A stretch of DNA of 64,000 nucleotides from Prevotellaceae bacterium. Its GTDB lineage: Bacteria; Bacteroidota; Bacteroidia; Bacteroidales; UBA932. Made by a program: the position numbers and the translations under genes. The stretch's first letter is position 1. Each line of letters starts with the position of its first letter. Under the pieces are notes generated by a model. The model ran no database searches. It was not told where the DNA came from and saw nothing but the letters and a program-made list of their open reading frames with translations. The stretch lies in the NCBI GenBank assembly GCA_031266015.1, contig JAISBU010000033.1, positions 1 through 64,000 of the forward strand, in the 5' to 3' direction. Positions 48,829 through 58,552 of the stretch are shown here, in pieces.

Positions 48829-50142
48829 ATGAAACAACACAACAAATTGATACTCGGCTTCGTGCTGGGTGTGGCATTTGGCCTGATTGGCTACTATTTC
48901 TTCCCGGCCACAGAATTCACTTTCATGACACGGGTCAGCGAGGTATTCACCTTCGTTGGTGCGATCTTCCTGCGCCTGATCTTCATGGTTGTCATTCCGC
49001 TGATCGTTTCCGCCTTGATGCTCGGAACTCTGGAGCTCAGCCAGGGCGCCAGCTTCGGTAAGGTGGGCAGCCGTTGCTTGCTGTTCACTATCGTGCTCAG
49101 CAGCATCGCAGCCGTCATCGCCATCAGCATCACCAACCTCCTCAAGCCGGGTGTCGGGCTGGACTACGATGCGGCGGCCCTGTCCGCAAATCAGGGTGTT
49201 CTGTCCATCCAGAAGGACGTGGCGGCGACCCAGGTCAAGCCGTGGTTTCAGTATCTGGTCGATCTGCTGCCGCAGAACCCGATCGATTCCGCCGCGCGCG
49301 CCTTCTCCGGCGAAATCATCGCTTTGATGGTTTTCGCGCTGCTCTTCGGCTGGGCCTTGAGTTCCATCATCAGAGATAAGGAGCATCCGTTCACCCAGGT
49401 TCTCGATGTGATTTTCAAGGCAAGCATGAGGATCATTGAGCTGGCCATGGTGCTTGCGCCCTACGCCATTTTCGGCATCGTCTTCAACACCGCCTACTGG
49501 ATGGGCGCTGGCTTTCTCGGCAACGTCGCCTACTTCGCTTTCGTCGTCATCCTCGGTCTGCTCCTGCAATTCTTTGTGGTTTACAGCATATTCTTGGCGA
49601 CCATTGGCCGGACCAACCCGCTGTCGTTCTACAAGCAGTGCCGCGACGTTTATCTTTATGCTTTCTCGACGGCATCTTCGAACGCGACGCTGCCGATAGC
49701 GCTGGCTTGCGCCGAAAATGTGCTGAAAATTCCGTCCCGAATTGCCCGCTTCGTGGTGACTATCGGCGCTTCGACCAATCAGAACGGTTCGGGTCTCTAC
49801 GAAGGCGTAGTCGTGATGTTCATGGCCCAGGTCTTCAATATCGACCTGACCCTCGGGCAGCAGGTTCTGATCATCATGATGTCCATGCTGGCGTGTGTCG
49901 GTACGGCGGGTATTCCCGGCGGATCGCTGCCGCTGATTGTGGTGCTGATGGTACAGGTCGGCATTCCGGCCGAAGGTATCGGCTTGATACTCGGCATCGA
50001 CCGCTTCCTCGATATGTGCCGTACTACCTTGAACGTCGCTGGCGACTTGGTCATTGCCAAACTAATCACCGCATCGTTGAACAAGAAGGATTTGGCGGAC
50101 AATGCGCGAAGCCGAAACCGCATAAACAGATTGCTAAATTAA
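48829..50142 (+). CDS. Dicarboxylate/amino-acid:cation symporter, recently transferred
   Basis: The 437-residue protein has eight membrane helices and two re-entrant loops of the DAACS family: STASSNATLPIALAC near residue 280, GASTNQNGSGLYEG near 308 and NVAGDLVIAKL near 412. It imports dicarboxylates or amino acids with Na+ or H+. The coding sequence is far GC-richer than its neighbours (39 of 60 bases in 49261-49320 against 26 of 60 in 48601-48660), with GCC, CTG and ATC codons, and a clear GGGGAAG ribosome-binding site sits before the ATG at 48829. That points to recent transfer from a proteobacterium. Confidence 0.93.
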   Translation: MKQHNKLILGFVLGVAFGLIGYYFFPATEFTFMTRVSEVFTFVGAIFLRLIFMVVIPLIVSALMLGTLELSQGASFGKVGSRCLLFTIVLSSIAAVIAISITNLLKPGVGLDYDAAALSANQGVLSIQKDVAATQVKPWFQYLVDLLPQNPIDSAARAFSGEIIALMVFALLFGWALSSIIRDKEHPFTQVLDVIFKASMRIIELAMVLAPYAIFGIVFNTAYWMGAGFLGNVAYFAFVVILGLLLQFFVVYSIFLATIGRTNPLSFYKQCRDVYLYAFSTASSNATLPIALACAENVLKIPSRIARFVVTIGASTNQNGSGLYEGVVVMFMAQVFNIDLTLGQQVLIIMMSMLACVGTAGIPGGSLPLIVVLMVQVGIPAEGIGLILGIDRFLDMCRTTLNVAGDLVIAKLITASLNKKDLADNARSRNRINRLLN

Positions 50143-50158
50143 ATTTTATAGAGATAGC

Positions 50159-50524
50159 ATGAAAAAAAATTGGAAAAATATCTTTTTAAGAGGAGCCTGC
50201 TTGACTTCCGCTACGTTTGTATTCCAAGCATGTTACGGTGGGCCTCAAGATTTTGGATTAGACTTGCTGGTTGAAGGAGAGGTCAGCTCAAAAAACACCG
50301 GACTTCCCATAAAAGGGATAAAGGTTTCTGTTGCCAACAGCATACAGCAGACTTATACTGACGAAAAGGGAAGCTTTTCATTCTACACGGAAAGGCTTGA
50401 CAGCGCCAAAATTCAATTCGAAGATACCAATTCGGTAGAAAACAAAAGCTTTGTCGGTAAGGATACCCTGTTGAGCATCAGCGGAGATAATATTTACCTG
50501 AAAATTGAGCTGGAAGAAAAGTAA
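50159..50524 (+). CDS. Radical-SAM-associated putative lipoprotein
   Basis: The 121-residue protein has a lipoprotein-type signal (residues 1-25) ending in QAC and then YGGPQDFG, the CYG-x-P pattern of the small lipoproteins that are found next to a radical SAM enzyme in Bacteroidota. The rest is a carboxypeptidase-regulatory-like beta domain (LPIKGIKVSVANSIQQTYT, then DEKGSFSFY). It ends one codon before the radical SAM gene, so the two are one unit. The lipoprotein is likely the substrate of that enzyme. Confidence 0.85.
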   Translation: MKKNWKNIFLRGACLTSATFVFQACYGGPQDFGLDLLVEGEVSSKNTGLPIKGIKVSVANSIQQTYTDEKGSFSFYTERLDSAKIQFEDTNSVENKSFVGKDTLLSISGDNIYLKIELEEK

Positions 50525-51607
50525 ATGAAACATTTGCTGCGCAGAATGGCTTTTCGTCAGTTCAAGAAGCATGAAGCTTCGCTGCACGAGCTGAGCTACC
50601 TGTTTTGGGAGTGCACCACCCGGTGCAACCTGAACTGTAGGCATTGCGGAAGCGACTGCTCAAAAAACAGCTCCTGCAAAGACATGCCCTTAAATGATTT
50701 CCTGACGGCTCTTGATACGATTGAAAAAATCCCCGAAAACTTCACCGTTGTTTTAACCGGAGGAGAGCCGCTGCTAAGAAAAGACATAGAGCTTTGCGGT
50801 AGAGAAATAAGAAAACGCGGCATGAGGTGGAGCATGGTAACCAACGGCTACCTGTACAGCAGGGAGAAACATATTTCGCTGCTCAACGCCGGGTTGGGTG
50901 CGCTCACCATCAGCCTCGACGGATTAAAAGAATCGCACAATTGGCTTAGAAACAACAGCAGCAGCTTCGATAGGGTTGATGCGGCAATTGAGCTGGCAGC
51001 AAGCTCATCCCGGATTAATTTCGACGTTGTAACGTGCGTGAATAAGAAAAATTTCCACGAGCTTGAGCAGATAAAAAAATATCTGACCGGCAAAGGCGTA
51101 AAAGCTTGGCGGCTTTTTACGATTATTCCCATCGGGCGGGCGAAAAATAACCCCGACATGTTTTTAGACAATTGGGAATTTGAAGCGCTAATGGATTTTA
51201 TACGCCAAGCAAGAAAAGACAGCAAAATAGATGTAAAATTCAGCTGCGAGGGCTTTGTTGAAAAGTATGAATGGAAAGTGAGAGACGGCGGCTTTTTTTG
51301 CAGAGCCGGAATTAATATAGGTTCCGTTTTAGCTGACGGCGCTATTGCTGCATGCCCGAACATAGACAAAAGCTTTGCGCAGGGGAATATTTACAAAGAT
51401 AATTTTTTCGAAATATGGAAAACCAAATACCAACCTTTCCGAGACCGCAGCTGGACAAAAATAGGACAATGTGAAAATTGTAAGTCCTACAAAGACTGCC
51501 AGGGGAATGGCTTTCATTACTGGCACGGAGACAAAAATAACGTTCTGGTATGCCACAAAGAAAAACTAAAAACAACGAACCGGAAGTTGAATAAAAGAGA
51601 AAAATAA
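50525..51607 (+). CDS. Radical SAM/SPASM-type maturase of the lipoprotein pair
   Basis: The 360-residue protein has the radical SAM motif CNLNCRHC (cysteines 34, 38 and 41) and VVLTGGEPLLRKD. The C-terminal part has a SPASM-type cysteine set (CRAGINIGSV, ACPNIDKS, GQCENCKSYKDC and VCHKEK) that would hold extra iron-sulphur clusters. It should modify a peptide, most likely the lipoprotein encoded three bases upstream. The modification is not known. Confidence 0.9.
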   Translation: MKHLLRRMAFRQFKKHEASLHELSYLFWECTTRCNLNCRHCGSDCSKNSSCKDMPLNDFLTALDTIEKIPENFTVVLTGGEPLLRKDIELCGREIRKRGMRWSMVTNGYLYSREKHISLLNAGLGALTISLDGLKESHNWLRNNSSSFDRVDAAIELAASSSRINFDVVTCVNKKNFHELEQIKKYLTGKGVKAWRLFTIIPIGRAKNNPDMFLDNWEFEALMDFIRQARKDSKIDVKFSCEGFVEKYEWKVRDGGFFCRAGINIGSVLADGAIAACPNIDKSFAQGNIYKDNFFEIWKTKYQPFRDRSWTKIGQCENCKSYKDCQGNGFHYWHGDKNNVLVCHKEKLKTTNRKLNKREK

Positions 51608-51615
51608 AGGTAAGC

Positions 51616-54600
51616 ATGTTGAAAATGATGGACTATAAAAACGAATTGATTCACTATATTTCCGAACTCAACAGTAAGTACAAAGAGGGTATTACCACCG
51701 AACATTCGTTTCGGGGAGCGCTGGAAGCTTTGCTCAAAAACATGACCGATTTTGCGGTAGTAAATGAAGCGCGGCATATCGCCTGCGGAGCGCCCGACTT
51801 GACGCTTTTGCAGAATAATATCCCTGTCGGCTACGTGGAGGCAAAAGATATTGGCAAAAACCTGAACTCGAAAGATTATAAAAATCAATTCGACAGATAT
51901 AAAAAAGCGCTTGACAACCTTGTTATCACCGACTACCTGACATTTCAGCTTTTTGAAGGCGAAAGTTTAGCTACCGGAATCGCCATCGGTAAAATTTTGC
52001 CGAATAAAATTGAACCGATACCCGAAAACTTCAACGCTTTTGCCGAAATGATTAAGGCTTTTTCGCTCTATAATGGCAAATCAATAAAGGATTCGCGGAA
52101 GTTGGCGGAATATATGGCTGCCAAGACGCAGCTTTTGGCAGAAGTGATTGAAAAAACCATTGCAGGTAAAAACGAAAGCAACTCGCTCCGTCAGCAGCTC
52201 AAAGGCTTTCAGCAGGTACTACTGCCCACGATGACAGATATGCAATTTGCCGATATTTACGCGCAAACCATTGCATACGGTATGTTTGTGGCGAGATTGC
52301 AGGATAATTCAGCTACTGATTTTACCCGTCAGAAAGCAGCAACGCTAATTCCGCAGTCCAATCCTTTCCTGCGCAATCTTTTTCACTACGTTGCAGGTTT
52401 CGACCTCGACGAAAATATCCGGTGGATTGTTGATTCGCTTGCCGACATGTTTAACTATGTAGATGTTACGGCTATTCACAAAGAATTTGAAAGCAAGGAT
52501 AAAGACCCTTTTCTGCATTTCTACGAGGATTTTCTGACCAAATATGACAAGCATCTGAAAACCGCAATGGGCGCGTACTATACGCCATTGGCGGTGGTTA
52601 AATTTATCGTAAATGCTGTTGATGATATACTGAAAACCGATTTTAACCTTGCAAAAGGCTTGGCTGATAATTCAATGGTTAGCATCAAAAACCATGAATA
52701 CCACAAAATACAAATTCTCGACCCTGCCACCGGTACAGGCACTTTCCTTGCGGAAGTAGTACGCAAAATTTACCGGCAATTTGCAGGCAATGCCGGAATG
52801 TGGAACGATTACGTAAAAAATCACCTTATTCCGCGCCTCAACGGTTTTGAAATAATGATGTCGCCCTACACAATGGCGCATTTGAAAATGGAAATGATTT
52901 TGCAGGAGTTGGGCGCAACCAGCACAGAGCGCCTGCACATTTACCTTACAGACGCATTGGAAAATCCCCAACAGAGCATACAGCAAATCCCTTTTGCGCA
53001 GTGGCTGAGCAACGAGGCAACCGAAGCCGCAAAAATCAAAAATGATGTGCCGGTGATGGTTGTTTTGGGTAATCCGCCGTACAGCGGCGAAAGTCAGAAC
53101 AAGGGCGAATGGATTTTGAACCAGATGAAAGACTACAAAAAAGAGCCGACAGGCGGTCGTTTACAGGAAAAAAATCCAAAGTGGCTGAACGATGATTACG
53201 CAAAATTTATTCGCTTCGGACAATATTTTGTCGAGAAAAACGACGGAGGAGGCATTTTAGCATACATCAACAATCACAGTTTTTTGGACAATCCTACTTT
53301 TCGCGGTATGCGATACAATCTGCTGCAAACTTTTGACAAAATTTATATCCTTGATTTACATGGCAACGCAAAGAAGAAAGAAACCGCGCCCGACGGCGGC
53401 AAAGACGAAAATGTATTCGATATACAGCAGGGCGTTTCCATTAATATTTTTGTGAAAACAGGCCGTAAAAAGACGAGTGAATCAGCAAAGGTTTTTCATT
53501 ACGACCTCTATGGTAAACGCTCGGAAAAGTACAGCTTCCTGTTGAACAACAATTTGCAAATCTTTAAAAAGCATGATTTGAAGTTGACCGAACCTCAGTT
53601 TTTTTTCACAAGAAAAGATTTTTCGTTGCAGAAAGAATATAAAAAAGGTTTTAGCGTGCAGGAATTATTTCCGGTCAATTCTGTCGGCATTGTTACTGCC
53701 CGCGATGAATTTACCATCCGTGACACGGCGCAGGCTGTACAAGATACTATTACCGAGTTCTTGCGATATGATGATAAGGCGGCGCGGGAACGATTTGATT
53801 TAGGAAAGGACGCGCGGGACTGGAGCGTTACAACGGCAAGAAAAGATTTAACCCCCAATCCTGATGTTTCAAATATCGTAAAAATCAATTACCGTCCATT
53901 TGATACCCGCTATACTTACTATACCGGACATTCAAAAGGCTTTCATTGTATGCCCCGTGGAAACGTTATGCGCCATTTTCTAAAAGGTGAAAATGTAGGA
54001 TTAATGGTATGTCGGCAACAAAAGACAAACAGTTTTCATCATTGTTTAGTTCACAAAAACATTGTAGAGTCAAGTTTTGTATCTAATAAAACCTCGGAAA
54101 TAGGGTATTCTTTCCCCCTTTACCTTTATCACGAACATTTCGGCAAAATTGAAAAAGTAGCGAATTTGAATAAGGCGATTGTTGCGAAAATAAAAGAATA
54201 TGTTGGAAAGGAAATCTCACCAGAACAAATCTTCGATTACATTTACGCCATTCTTCATTCACCTGCATATCGTACAAGATACAAGGAATTTCTGAAAATT
54301 GATTTTCCGCGCATACCCTATCCCGAAAATGCAGAACAGTTTAAGAAAATGGTGACCTTAGGTAAAAAGTTAAGAAAATTGCATTTAATGGAAGATGTTG
54401 CCGTTACGGCTACAATGGCCAATTTCCCAAAATCGGGAAGCAATAATGTTGAAAATTCATTTACCGAAAAATCCGGCACTTACCGGGATAGCAAGGTTTG
54501 GATTAACGACGCTCAATACTTCAGCAACGTTCCGTTAGAAGCGTGGAGCTTCTACATCGGCGGCTACCAGCCCGCCCAAAAGTGGCTCAAAGACCGCAAA

Positions 54601-54714
54601 GGGCGCACGCTGGGATATGAGGATATTGTGCACTACCAAAAGATAATCGCAGCTTTAACCGAAACAGGAAAAGTGATGCAAGAGGTGGATGCGGAAATGG
54701 GAAAAAGGAAATAA
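51616..54714 (+). CDS. Helicase-less Type ISP-like restriction/modification enzyme
   Basis: The 1032-residue protein begins with a nuclease-like part: APDLTLLQNNIPVGYVEAK, where aspartate 61, glutamate 75 and lysine 77 form a PD-(D/E)xK set. The middle is an N6-adenine methyltransferase with GAYYTP, motif I DPATGTGTF from residue 369, and motif IV NPPY from 486. The C-terminal third, with FFTRKDFSL and YRPFDTRYTYYTGHSKG, matches the target-recognition/C-terminal domain of Type ISP enzymes. No helicase part is present, so one chain would methylate and cut DNA. It starts eight bases after the radical SAM gene. Confidence 0.88.
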   Translation: MLKMMDYKNELIHYISELNSKYKEGITTEHSFRGALEALLKNMTDFAVVNEARHIACGAPDLTLLQNNIPVGYVEAKDIGKNLNSKDYKNQFDRYKKALDNLVITDYLTFQLFEGESLATGIAIGKILPNKIEPIPENFNAFAEMIKAFSLYNGKSIKDSRKLAEYMAAKTQLLAEVIEKTIAGKNESNSLRQQLKGFQQVLLPTMTDMQFADIYAQTIAYGMFVARLQDNSATDFTRQKAATLIPQSNPFLRNLFHYVAGFDLDENIRWIVDSLADMFNYVDVTAIHKEFESKDKDPFLHFYEDFLTKYDKHLKTAMGAYYTPLAVVKFIVNAVDDILKTDFNLAKGLADNSMVSIKNHEYHKIQILDPATGTGTFLAEVVRKIYRQFAGNAGMWNDYVKNHLIPRLNGFEIMMSPYTMAHLKMEMILQELGATSTERLHIYLTDALENPQQSIQQIPFAQWLSNEATEAAKIKNDVPVMVVLGNPPYSGESQNKGEWILNQMKDYKKEPTGGRLQEKNPKWLNDDYAKFIRFGQYFVEKNDGGGILAYINNHSFLDNPTFRGMRYNLLQTFDKIYILDLHGNAKKKETAPDGGKDENVFDIQQGVSINIFVKTGRKKTSESAKVFHYDLYGKRSEKYSFLLNNNLQIFKKHDLKLTEPQFFFTRKDFSLQKEYKKGFSVQELFPVNSVGIVTARDEFTIRDTAQAVQDTITEFLRYDDKAARERFDLGKDARDWSVTTARKDLTPNPDVSNIVKINYRPFDTRYTYYTGHSKGFHCMPRGNVMRHFLKGENVGLMVCRQQKTNSFHHCLVHKNIVESSFVSNKTSEIGYSFPLYLYHEHFGKIEKVANLNKAIVAKIKEYVGKEISPEQIFDYIYAILHSPAYRTRYKEFLKIDFPRIPYPENAEQFKKMVTLGKKLRKLHLMEDVAVTATMANFPKSGSNNVENSFTEKSGTYRDSKVWINDAQYFSNVPLEAWSFYIGGYQPAQKWLKDRKGRTLGYEDIVHYQKIIAALTETGKVMQEVDAEMGKRK

Positions 54715-54751: not shown

Positions 54752-55750
54752 ATGAAAAATGAAATTCAGAAAATAAATACCAGCTTCGTAATTTACGAAA
54801 CAGATGATAAAGTGGCAAAAGTAACGGTACGATTGGAAGAAGAAACCGTTTGGCTGACACAAAAACAGTTGGCAGAGATTTTTGACACAACAAAACAAAA
54901 TATCGGGCAGCATGTCAAAAATATTTTGGAAGAAGGAGAATTGAATCGAGATTCAGTTGTAAAGTTTTTCTTTACAACTGCCTCCGACGGGAAAAACTAC
55001 AACACAGAACATTACAACCTTGATATGATAATTTCGCTCGGTTATCGTATCAATTCAAAAGTGGCGACAAAATTTCGTCAGTGGGCAACAGAGCGTTTAA
55101 AAGAATACATTGTAAAAGGTTTCACGCTCGATGATGAACGCCTCAAAGGAAACGGTAATCGGTATTTTCGCGAACTTTTGCAACGCATTCGCGATATTCG
55201 TTATTCCGAAAGAAACCTTTGGCAACAGGTTACGGACATTTACGCTACAAGCGTTGATTACGATCCTCGCAGTACAATTACGCTTGATTTTTTTGCAACC
55301 GTTCAAAACAAAATGCACTATGCTGTTCATAAACAAACAGCCGCCGAAGTGATTTACAGTCGTGCAGATGATGAAAAACCAATGGTTGGAATGACAAATT
55401 TCAAGGGCAACTACATTACCAAAGAAGATGTTCGCATTGCTAAAAATTACCTTTCGGAACTTGAATTGCAAAAACTCAATCTGCTGACCGAAGGTTTTTT
55501 AGGTTATGCCGAATTGCAGGCATTAGAACAAAAGTCGATGACGATGAACGACTGGAAAAGCTTTTTAAACTGGCAACTACGAATGTTGAACAAAGATATT
55601 TTGAACGACAAAGGCAGAATATCACATCAGCAAGCCATTGAAAAAGCCGAAAAAGAATTTGACATTTATCGCAGTCGTGAAATGAAACAGCTGGAAAGCG
55701 ATTTCGACCGCACCGTGAAACAATTAACTGAAACGAAAAAAAGGAAATAA
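54752..55750 (+). CDS. rhuM: RhuM-family protein
   Basis: The 332-residue protein matches RhuM over its length: EETVWLTQKQLAEIFDTTKQ as a DNA-binding-like head, YNLDMIISLGYRINSKVATK and FRQWATERLKEYIVKG in the middle, and a conserved C-terminal region with DYDPRSTITLDFFATVQNKM. RhuM was first described as a Salmonella virulence gene and is often found beside restriction systems; its activity is unknown. It is followed by two broken copies of itself. Confidence 0.92.
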   Translation: MKNEIQKINTSFVIYETDDKVAKVTVRLEEETVWLTQKQLAEIFDTTKQNIGQHVKNILEEGELNRDSVVKFFFTTASDGKNYNTEHYNLDMIISLGYRINSKVATKFRQWATERLKEYIVKGFTLDDERLKGNGNRYFRELLQRIRDIRYSERNLWQQVTDIYATSVDYDPRSTITLDFFATVQNKMHYAVHKQTAAEVIYSRADDEKPMVGMTNFKGNYITKEDVRIAKNYLSELELQKLNLLTEGFLGYAELQALEQKSMTMNDWKSFLNWQLRMLNKDILNDKGRISHQQAIEKAEKEFDIYRSREMKQLESDFDRTVKQLTETKKRK

Positions 55751-56571: not shown

Positions 56572-57771
56572 ATGGCACAAGAATTACAGCACACACAGCC
56601 CGGCAGCGCTCCGGCGCAGGCCTTTGGGTTTGCCACCAGAGCCGTTCACGCGGGCGAGGAGGTTGACCTTAGAGAAGGGGCTACCGGCGAAGTAGTGGCC
56701 GCCATACACCTGGCCACCACCTACGCCCGCAAAAAAGTAGCCGAGCCGGGGCGCTACGAGTACATCCGCCTGCAAAACCCCACCCGCGAAGCGCTGGAGC
56801 TAAAGCTGGCCTCGCTGGAAAACGCGCAGTACGGACTGGCTTTCAGCTCCGGGCTGGCGGCCGAAACAACCCTCCTGCTGGCGCTGCTCAAGGCGGGCGA
56901 CCACATTGTTGCCTTTGACGATTTGTACGGCGGCACCAAACGGCTGTTCGAGCAAATATTTGCCAATTTTGGCATCGAAGCCTCATACGTTGACGCCACC
57001 AGCGCCCAGCTGGTAGAAGACGCGCTGAGGCCGGCTACCAAAATGGTGTGGGTAGAATCGCCCACCAACCCCCTGCTCAAGCTCGCCGACATCCGCGCTA
57101 TTGCAGAAATCACCCGGCGGCGCGGGGTAGCTTTGGTGGTGGACAATACCTTTCTGTCGCCCTGCCTCCAAAGGCCGCTGGACTTGGGCGCCGACGTGGT
57201 GGTGCACAGCGTTACCAAGTACCTCGGCGGGCACAGCGACGTGCTGGGAGGCGCTCTGCTGCTCAACAGCCGGCAGCTCTACGAGCAGCTGCAGTTCAAC
57301 CAGAACTCTACGGGCGCGGTGCTACCGCCCTTCGACTCGTACCTCACGCTGCGGGGACTCAAAACGCTGGCGCTGCGCATGGAGCAGCACGGCAAAAATG
57401 CGCTGGTGGTAGCGCGCTACTTGGATAAGCATCCCCGAGTGAGCCGCGTGCTCTACCCGGGCTTGGAGAGCCACCCGCAGCATGCGCTGGCAAAGGTGCA
57501 GGCAAGCGGCTTTGGCGGGATGCTCTCGTTCGACGTAAAGGGAACGGCTGCCGACGCCGAAAACTTTTTGGAGCGCCTGCGGATATTTACGCTGGCCGAA
57601 AGTTTGGGCGGCGTAGAGTCGCTCATCGAGCTGCCCGCGCAGATGACCCACGTATCGGTAGAAAAAGCCGAGCGCGAAAAAATCGGCATTACCGACACCC
57701 TAATCCGCGTATCGGTAGGCATAGAGGACGTGTCCGACCTGATTGCCGACTTGGAGCAGGCGCTGGCTTGA
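56572..57771 (+). CDS. PLP-dependent transsulfuration enzyme (cystathionine gamma-synthase/lyase family)
   Basis: The 399-residue protein has the Cys/Met-metabolism PLP fold: YEYIRLQNPTREALE near residue 62, SSGLAAETT near 92, and the PLP lysine (216) in SVTKYLGGHSDV, with GGVESLIELPA near 349. It could be a cystathionine gamma-synthase, gamma-lyase or O-acylhomoserine sulfhydrylase; sequence alone does not settle it. The gene is very GC-rich (40 of 60 bases in 57181-57240), unlike the AT-rich RhuM genes before it. Confidence 0.9.
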   Translation: MAQELQHTQPGSAPAQAFGFATRAVHAGEEVDLREGATGEVVAAIHLATTYARKKVAEPGRYEYIRLQNPTREALELKLASLENAQYGLAFSSGLAAETTLLLALLKAGDHIVAFDDLYGGTKRLFEQIFANFGIEASYVDATSAQLVEDALRPATKMVWVESPTNPLLKLADIRAIAEITRRRGVALVVDNTFLSPCLQRPLDLGADVVVHSVTKYLGGHSDVLGGALLLNSRQLYEQLQFNQNSTGAVLPPFDSYLTLRGLKTLALRMEQHGKNALVVARYLDKHPRVSRVLYPGLESHPQHALAKVQASGFGGMLSFDVKGTAADAENFLERLRIFTLAESLGGVESLIELPAQMTHVSVEKAEREKIGITDTLIRVSVGIEDVSDLIADLEQALA

Positions 57772-58210: not shown

Positions 58211-58552
58211 TCATCCTCCGGCTTTCTTTGCCTTGTATCCTGCCTGGGATAGCAGCTCCAGCGCCTTATCCCTGAGGTCGCCTTGAAGTAAGATTTCTCC
58301 ATCCTTGGCGGAACCACCTACACCACATTTAGCTTTGAGCATCTTGCCCAAAGCCTCAAGGTCTTCCTTTGTGCCAACGAAGTTTTCTACCAGCGTAACC
58401 TTTTTCCCGCCACGCTGCTTTTTATCAAGCAGCACCCGTAAGTCTTGCTGCTGTGGCGGCAGCGTTTCCATGTTTTCCTCCTGTTGCTTTTCGTAGTCAA
58501 AGTTGGGATTTGTGGAGTACACTACGCCAAGTCTTTCTTTCCAGTCGGCCAT
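58211..58552 (-). CDS. SUI1/YciH-type translation initiation factor
   Basis: The 113-residue protein has the SUI1 domain in its second half (KKVTLVENFVGTKEDLEALG and KCGVGGSAKDGEILLQGD). It resembles bacterial YciH, which influences start-site selection at the ribosome. It lies about 29 bases after the DUF2807 gene on the same strand. Confidence 0.9.
   Translation of the reverse strand: MADWKERLGVVYSTNPNFDYEKQQEENMETLPPQQQDLRVLLDKKQRGGKKVTLVENFVGTKEDLEALGKMLKAKCGVGGSAKDGEILLQGDLRDKALELLSQAGYKAKKAGG

Follow-up and report, generated by a model that had tools for sequence, protein, structure and literature searches.

A TIGR04133 radical SAM/SPASM enzyme and its adjacent CYGGP lipoprotein: a likely tyramine-splicing gene pair

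Among the described systems close to the locus reported here is the PlpXY splicease, in which PlpX, a radical SAM enzyme with a SPASM domain, works with PlpY and excises tyramine at an XYG site (-135.07 Da), leaving an alpha-ketoamide; for the gene pair described below, this hallmark is a prediction. We take TIGR04103 ("nif11-class peptide radical SAM maturase 3") to be the InterPro family of PlpX. Scott et al. (Chem, 2022) surveyed spliceases and may already cover part of the present proposal. The natural sites at which PlpX cuts are MYG and LYG; one splice tag, PIRPLYGLPI, has the form XYGxP, and another tag, functional in one protein context, carries RPGYGLPI, a derivative of RPLYGLPI (PMC10533398; PMC11002830). 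The beta-residues of spliceotides have been reported to confer protease inhibition (PMC10373908). RiPP-lipoprotein hybrids also have a precedent, in MNIO systems: DAG-RiPPs, which likewise occur in Bacteroidota, resemble the present pair in combining a lipoprotein signal peptide with posttranslational modification and differ from it in being made by MNIO enzymes, the section describing them mentioning no radical SAM example (PMC12636315).

The gene pair and its family

The window, i.e., the whole 64,000-nucleotide stretch of Prevotellaceae DNA analyzed here, contains a small lipoprotein-like ORF and, abutting it with zero intergenic bases, an ORF encoding a radical SAM/SPASM enzyme (Table 1). 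A first-pass annotation had already recognized this arrangement, together with a restriction gene starting eight bases farther on, a CYG-x-P pattern and a carboxypeptidase-regulatory-like fold in the lipoprotein, and a chemistry that seemed unreported for such proteins, and these descriptive points hold up, as do its coordinates. The restriction ORF does start 8 bp past the enzyme stop codon; upstream, 16 bp separate the lipoprotein ORF from the end of a sodium:dicarboxylate symporter gene. The fold is best described as a CarboxypepD_reg-like domain, weakly matched (CarbopepD_reg_2, 31.5 bits, below the gathering score of 32.2). A literature search covering the accessions TIGR04133 and TIGR04134 and radical SAM/lipoprotein systems returned no paper naming the family, so that, as far as could be checked, the chemistry is indeed unreported.

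Table 1. Window positions of the gene pair, its predicted functional parts, and the downstream neighbor
Feature	Position	Strand	Length and basis
Lipoprotein-like ORF, putative substrate	50159..50524	+	121 aa; signal peptide, residues 1-24; CarboxypepD_reg-like domain, residues ~38-88
Signal peptide (residues 1-24), candidate recognition leader	50159..50230	+	More conserved than the mature domain in type B
C25-Y26-G27-G28-P29, predicted modification site, with the lipobox Cys as X	50231..50245	+	Motif conservation
TIGR04133 radical SAM/SPASM enzyme	50525..51607	+	360 aa; profile score and Cys pattern
Type IIG (Type ISP-like) restriction-methylation enzyme	51616..54714	+	1032 aa; neighbor, judged to lie outside the system

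With 476.9 bits against NCBIfam TIGR04133, the enzyme lies above the curated cutoff of 425 and is a member of that family, the usual partner of which is the TIGR04134 lipoprotein; the pair is therefore a known, catalogued family lacking a functional assignment. RefSeq already labels such pairs TIGR04133/TIGR04134, for instance, in Treponema saccharophilum and Parabacteroides distasonis, and annotation of this kind goes no further than "radical SAM/SPASM protein" and "putative lipoprotein." The window lipoprotein, at 28.3 bits, falls below the curated TIGR04134 cutoff of 39.8; because it adjoins a TIGR04133 gene and has YGxP, as TIGR04133/TIGR04134 pairs do, we consider that it acts like a member.

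What sets it apart from TIGR04134 is its short form, with the lipobox Cys serving as X in XYG. We refer to the canonical form, with a lipobox Cys, some further residues and then YGxP, as type A and to the window form, in which the lipobox Cys doubles as the C of CYGxP, as type B. In the window protein, that Cys is residue 25; the preceding segment (LTSATFVFQAC) fits the standard lipobox pattern, and YGGP comes next. The corresponding DNA pattern for ACYGxP has a single match in the whole genome, at the motif listed in Table 1. The same genome carries a second, canonical type A pair on contig C60 (enzyme, 573 bits; lipoprotein, 89 bits), to which the window enzyme and lipoprotein are 52% and 27% identical, respectively.

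An alignment of 28 type B lipoproteins has just four invariant columns, A24-C25-Y26-G27, followed by P in 27 rows; the lipobox Cys expected of a bacterial lipoprotein or DAG-RiPP is invariant in these rows, though replaced at two Spirochaete loci described below. Signal peptides are also alike elsewhere, with Arg at position 7 in 24/28 (Asn in the window protein), Phe at position 20 in 25/28, and Gln at position 23 in 25/28. Among the 19 full-length rows, mean pairwise identity is 0.43 in the signal peptide versus 0.32 in the mature domain. This greater conservation suggests that, before export, the signal peptide serves the enzyme as a recognition leader.

Pairing and the XYG motif in related loci

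One genome scan yielded 80 related loci with flanks of up to 10 kb, of which 78 contain a TIGR04133-like ORF; sorted by hand, 4 are truncated by the end of a contig, 66 have an adjacent partner, and 8 lack one. The two-gene arrangement, found in 66 of the 74 loci having usable flanks, together with the invariant A-C-Y-G of the type B lipoproteins, takes the pairing beyond chance. Among ORFs of at least 80 aa, the lipoprotein is the sole recurrent neighbor of the enzyme across the family, other recurrent neighbors being confined to small sets of related genomes. Of 41 genomes from relatives of the window, 14 have a TIGR04133 enzyme, as do 31 of 61 genomes from the phylum of the Fibrobacter locus.

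Behind a signal peptide or hydrophobic segment, XYG was found in 65 of the 66 adjacent partners, and CYG-x-P is indeed the key pattern. This count was set by hand, as an automatic tally gave 69, including false hits (e.g., at L025 and L070, whose true partners were identified separately), and missed L057 and L068. Exceptions to the motif are a partner without YG (L087), one with YATP (L013), and one with YG only within its domain (L006). Enzymes without an adjacent lipoprotein were noted at L026, L031, L038, L040, L043, L047, and L096. Five of these loci (L031, L038, L040, L043, and L096) share an outer-membrane-like neighbor, and their substrate may therefore sit elsewhere.

What stays the same among the partners is the motif rather than the fold. 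Type B partners from the rumen (L048, L052, and L056) no longer have the carboxypeptidase-like domain: their signal peptide is followed by CYGxP and then by some 35 residues, most of them acidic. At L012, the partner is another kind of protein and contains the motif twice (ACLYGTP and ACVYGSP), and the L069 partner has it three times. At two Spirochaete loci (L039 and L045), the lipobox Cys is replaced by Ala or Gly and AYG or GYG is kept. The TIGR04133 enzymes of L148 and L149, from the same phylum as L090 (see below), have as neighbors small proteins of unrelated sequence that contain VLYGPPP, MMYGPV, and AKYGGPP. Fibrobacter genomes have arrays of paralogous lipoproteins with one to six XYG sites per protein; across 32 of these proteins, YG occurs 63 times, versus 13.6 expected from composition, with X mostly Leu and V, A, C, or I next, followed by P. 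Overall, the motif is linked to the enzyme gene in Bacteroidota, Fibrobacterota, Spirochaetota, and others on unrelated scaffolds; the same loci have 42 background lipobox ORFs, just one of which shows YGxP within 25 aa.

In the Fibrobacter arrays (L072, L074, L075, L077, and L159 to L177), one or two TIGR04133 genes are surrounded by as many as about 15 genes for paralogous lipoproteins. Within them, X varies among L, E, D, V, K, M, and A, and they look like a diversified product family.

Kinship with TIGR04103-type enzymes and predicted chemistry

The window enzyme has the radical SAM cluster motif CxxxCxxC (Cys 34, 38, and 41) and six SPASM cysteines (259, 277, 316, 319, 325, and 343). The seventh SPASM Cys, present in 13/13 TIGR04103-type enzymes of our panel and in 8/8 enzymes of a further group (here called "mid"), is absent from TIGR04133, which has C-x3-G/S/A/P instead of C-x3-C. 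Against TIGR04103, the window enzyme aligns over its full length with 117.4 bits, far from the cutoff of 725; NirJ2 and AhbD are its next-best families, and these two and TIGR04053 all rank above TIGR04103. Elsewhere, TIGR04103 is the second-best NCBIfam family (L075, L090, and L045), TIGR04133 is third best for three other enzymes (L099, L100, and L133), and for L001, L017, L091, and L149, a family other than TIGR04103 ranks second. TIGR04103-like enzymes are common in the phylum to which L090 belongs (Myxococcota, according to the origin label in the tree), and the 30 such loci fetched there are likewise below the 725-bit cutoff.

In a tree built with a quick method and a small outgroup, TIGR04133 forms one clade (support, 99) neighboring the clade of TIGR04103-type and mid enzymes (98), and both are separate from NirJ/Ahb (99); when mycofactocin-type outgroups were sought, a single weak match turned up. 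The window enzyme, with NirJ2 and AhbD as next-best families, resembles NirJ/AhbC/AhbD in profile and differs from them in its clade and in having a co-occurring protein partner rather than heme substrates. Its structure model is confident (mean pLDDT, 94.4), and the nearest solved folds include the protein- or peptide-modifying SPASM enzymes anSME, SkfB, CteB, SuiB, ChlB, and PqqE; searches of solved structures found no splicease. Residues R205, A206, and P278 are common to TIGR04133 and TIGR04103-type enzymes and almost wholly missing from the mid group.

All 13 TIGR04103-type enzymes in the tree adjoin XYG proteins or peptides. Twelve of these enzymes have partners that start with a zinc-ribbon-like segment and in most cases also contain a membrane or lipobox segment, with sites such as SACYGQPP, GCAYGMPP, ALYGAP, and VYGVPA; the remaining enzyme (L099) adjoins short LYGV/PYGV peptides. 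Together with the TIGR04133 partners, this amounts to two enzyme families and several unrelated scaffolds with one motif. At L108 to L137, the proteins next to TIGR04103-like enzymes have XYGxP motifs, a membrane or lipobox segment, and, at the N terminus, a zinc ribbon (CPxCxRHVR...CPFC) that may be a recognition leader. The mid group consists of TIGR04103-like enzymes (L100, L138, L139, L141, L143, and L145 to L147), and inspection of their loci revealed no XYG partner alongside. Since these enzymes are nearer to TIGR04103 in the tree than TIGR04133 is, and since TIGR04133 has no seventh SPASM Cys, kinship alone cannot fix the chemistry, and we rejected it as sole proof.

Compared with PlpXY, the window pair shares a SPASM radical SAM enzyme, TIGR04103 among the nearest enzyme families, and an XYG(xP) motif in the adjacent putative substrate (CYGGP). 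It differs in its putative substrate, an exported, lipoprotein-like protein, that of PlpX being a Nif11- or nitrile-hydratase-leader peptide; in having one SPASM Cys fewer; and in the absence of PlpY, as there is no room for a PlpY-like gene beside the window pair and none recurs across the family among ORFs of at least 80 aa.

Gene pairing, conservation of the motif over unrelated scaffolds, the motif and kinship in common with TIGR04103-type enzymes, and conservation of the signal peptide are best explained if the enzyme modifies the XYG site of the lipoprotein, which we consider very probable, and by analogy with PlpX, the two genes are likely a modification unit with tyramine-splicing chemistry. 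After translation, the prolipoprotein would be met, still unexported, by the enzyme in the cytoplasm, the signal peptide probably being read as the leader. C25-Y26-G27 would then be altered with loss of C8H9NO (tyramine excision), followed by Sec export, lipidation of Cys25, and cleavage ahead of Cys25, lipidation and anchoring being expected in most members; the end product would be an anchored protein with an alpha-ketoamide. Given the protease inhibition reported for spliceotide beta-residues, the role that we favor, plausible and speculative, is reversible covalent inhibition of proteases by the membrane-anchored protein, the protease reading X as the specificity residue. More broadly, gut, rumen, and environmental bacteria might carry anchored proteins with a backbone-spliced alpha-keto-beta-amino acid near the lipid, introduced by a large family of as yet unassigned enzymes with the signal peptide as leader; in type B, the lipidated Cys would be the beta-residue, and Fibrobacter would have panels with different X, a composite picture that, in our judgment, could fall either way.

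With XYG as the modification site, the reaction can be tested by a mass shift of fixed size. If the proposal is true, gut and rumen bacteria are predicted to display electrophilic ketoamide proteins on their envelopes, and the family would offer new tools for the enzymatic introduction of beta-amino acids into proteins; TIGR04133/TIGR04134 pairs are widespread yet annotated by generic names only.

Alternative readings and neighboring genes

Less likely, the enzyme might carry out other radical chemistry at the same Y-G-x-P site: a Tyr cross-link (cyclophane or ether), epimerization, or oxidation of Tyr or Gly. The fold is common to SPASM enzymes of many reactions, and the lack of one SPASM Cys relative to the TIGR04103 type may mean a different auxiliary cluster and a different reaction. 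What speaks against it is that the conserved X-Y-G unit is the known splicease motif and that there is no fixed partner residue, the position two past Tyr being T, M, A, V, C, I, or P in other partners. A three-residue cyclophane (triceptide) starting from Tyr requires a side-chain carbon two residues on; in the window, the third residue of YGG is Gly, and we therefore disfavor this product. It is even less probable, to the point of being doubtful, that YGxP is a sorting or structural signal and that the enzyme acts elsewhere, e.g., on a small molecule, like its NirJ/AhbD relatives. Such a role would fit the rank of NirJ2 and AhbD among the families matched and the eight loci in which the enzyme has no adjacent lipoprotein. 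It does not account for a motif that is tied to the enzyme gene across phyla and unrelated scaffolds, is rare among background lipobox ORFs, and is repeated inside single proteins, which would be needless for a sorting signal. Modification of the XYG site remains our preferred reading.

From the short distance to the restriction gene, the first-pass annotation had raised the question of a joint role and proposed a check of whether such pairs recur beside defense genes. Pair and restriction gene lie on the same strand, 8 bp apart, and the restriction gene and the RhuM-family gene behind it resemble a small defense patch. However, no homologue of either gene was found in the 80 related loci, in which only the lipoprotein recurs beside the enzyme, and downstream genes in the eight closest type B loci differ from those of the window. 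Of 296 Bacteroidota genomes, 46, counting that of the window, have a relative of the restriction gene; 19 further loci were fetched with about 1.5 kb on either side, and in none do these flanks hold the pair. Given this lack of recurrence, we rejected the idea that the pair is linked in defense to RhuM or the restriction gene; a joint defense unit is highly improbable, and the adjacency is best seen as local.

The RhuM-family gene (window positions 54752 to 55750), directly 3' of the restriction gene, corresponds to the PADLOC candidate defense system PDC-S05, and the two genes may be a small defense patch of their own. Mobile carriage of the pair was dropped from consideration, as a search found no match among phage records and only three matching plasmid records. 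The dicarboxylate symporter gene (48829 to 50142; ~56% GC) and a gene at 56572 to 57771 (~60% GC), by eye a Cys/Met-metabolism-like PLP enzyme, bracket a lower-GC stretch that holds the pair, the restriction gene, and RhuM; transfers are possible. Farther downstream, on the reverse strand (58211 to 58552), a small ORF resembles, again by eye, an SUI1/eIF1-type translation factor.
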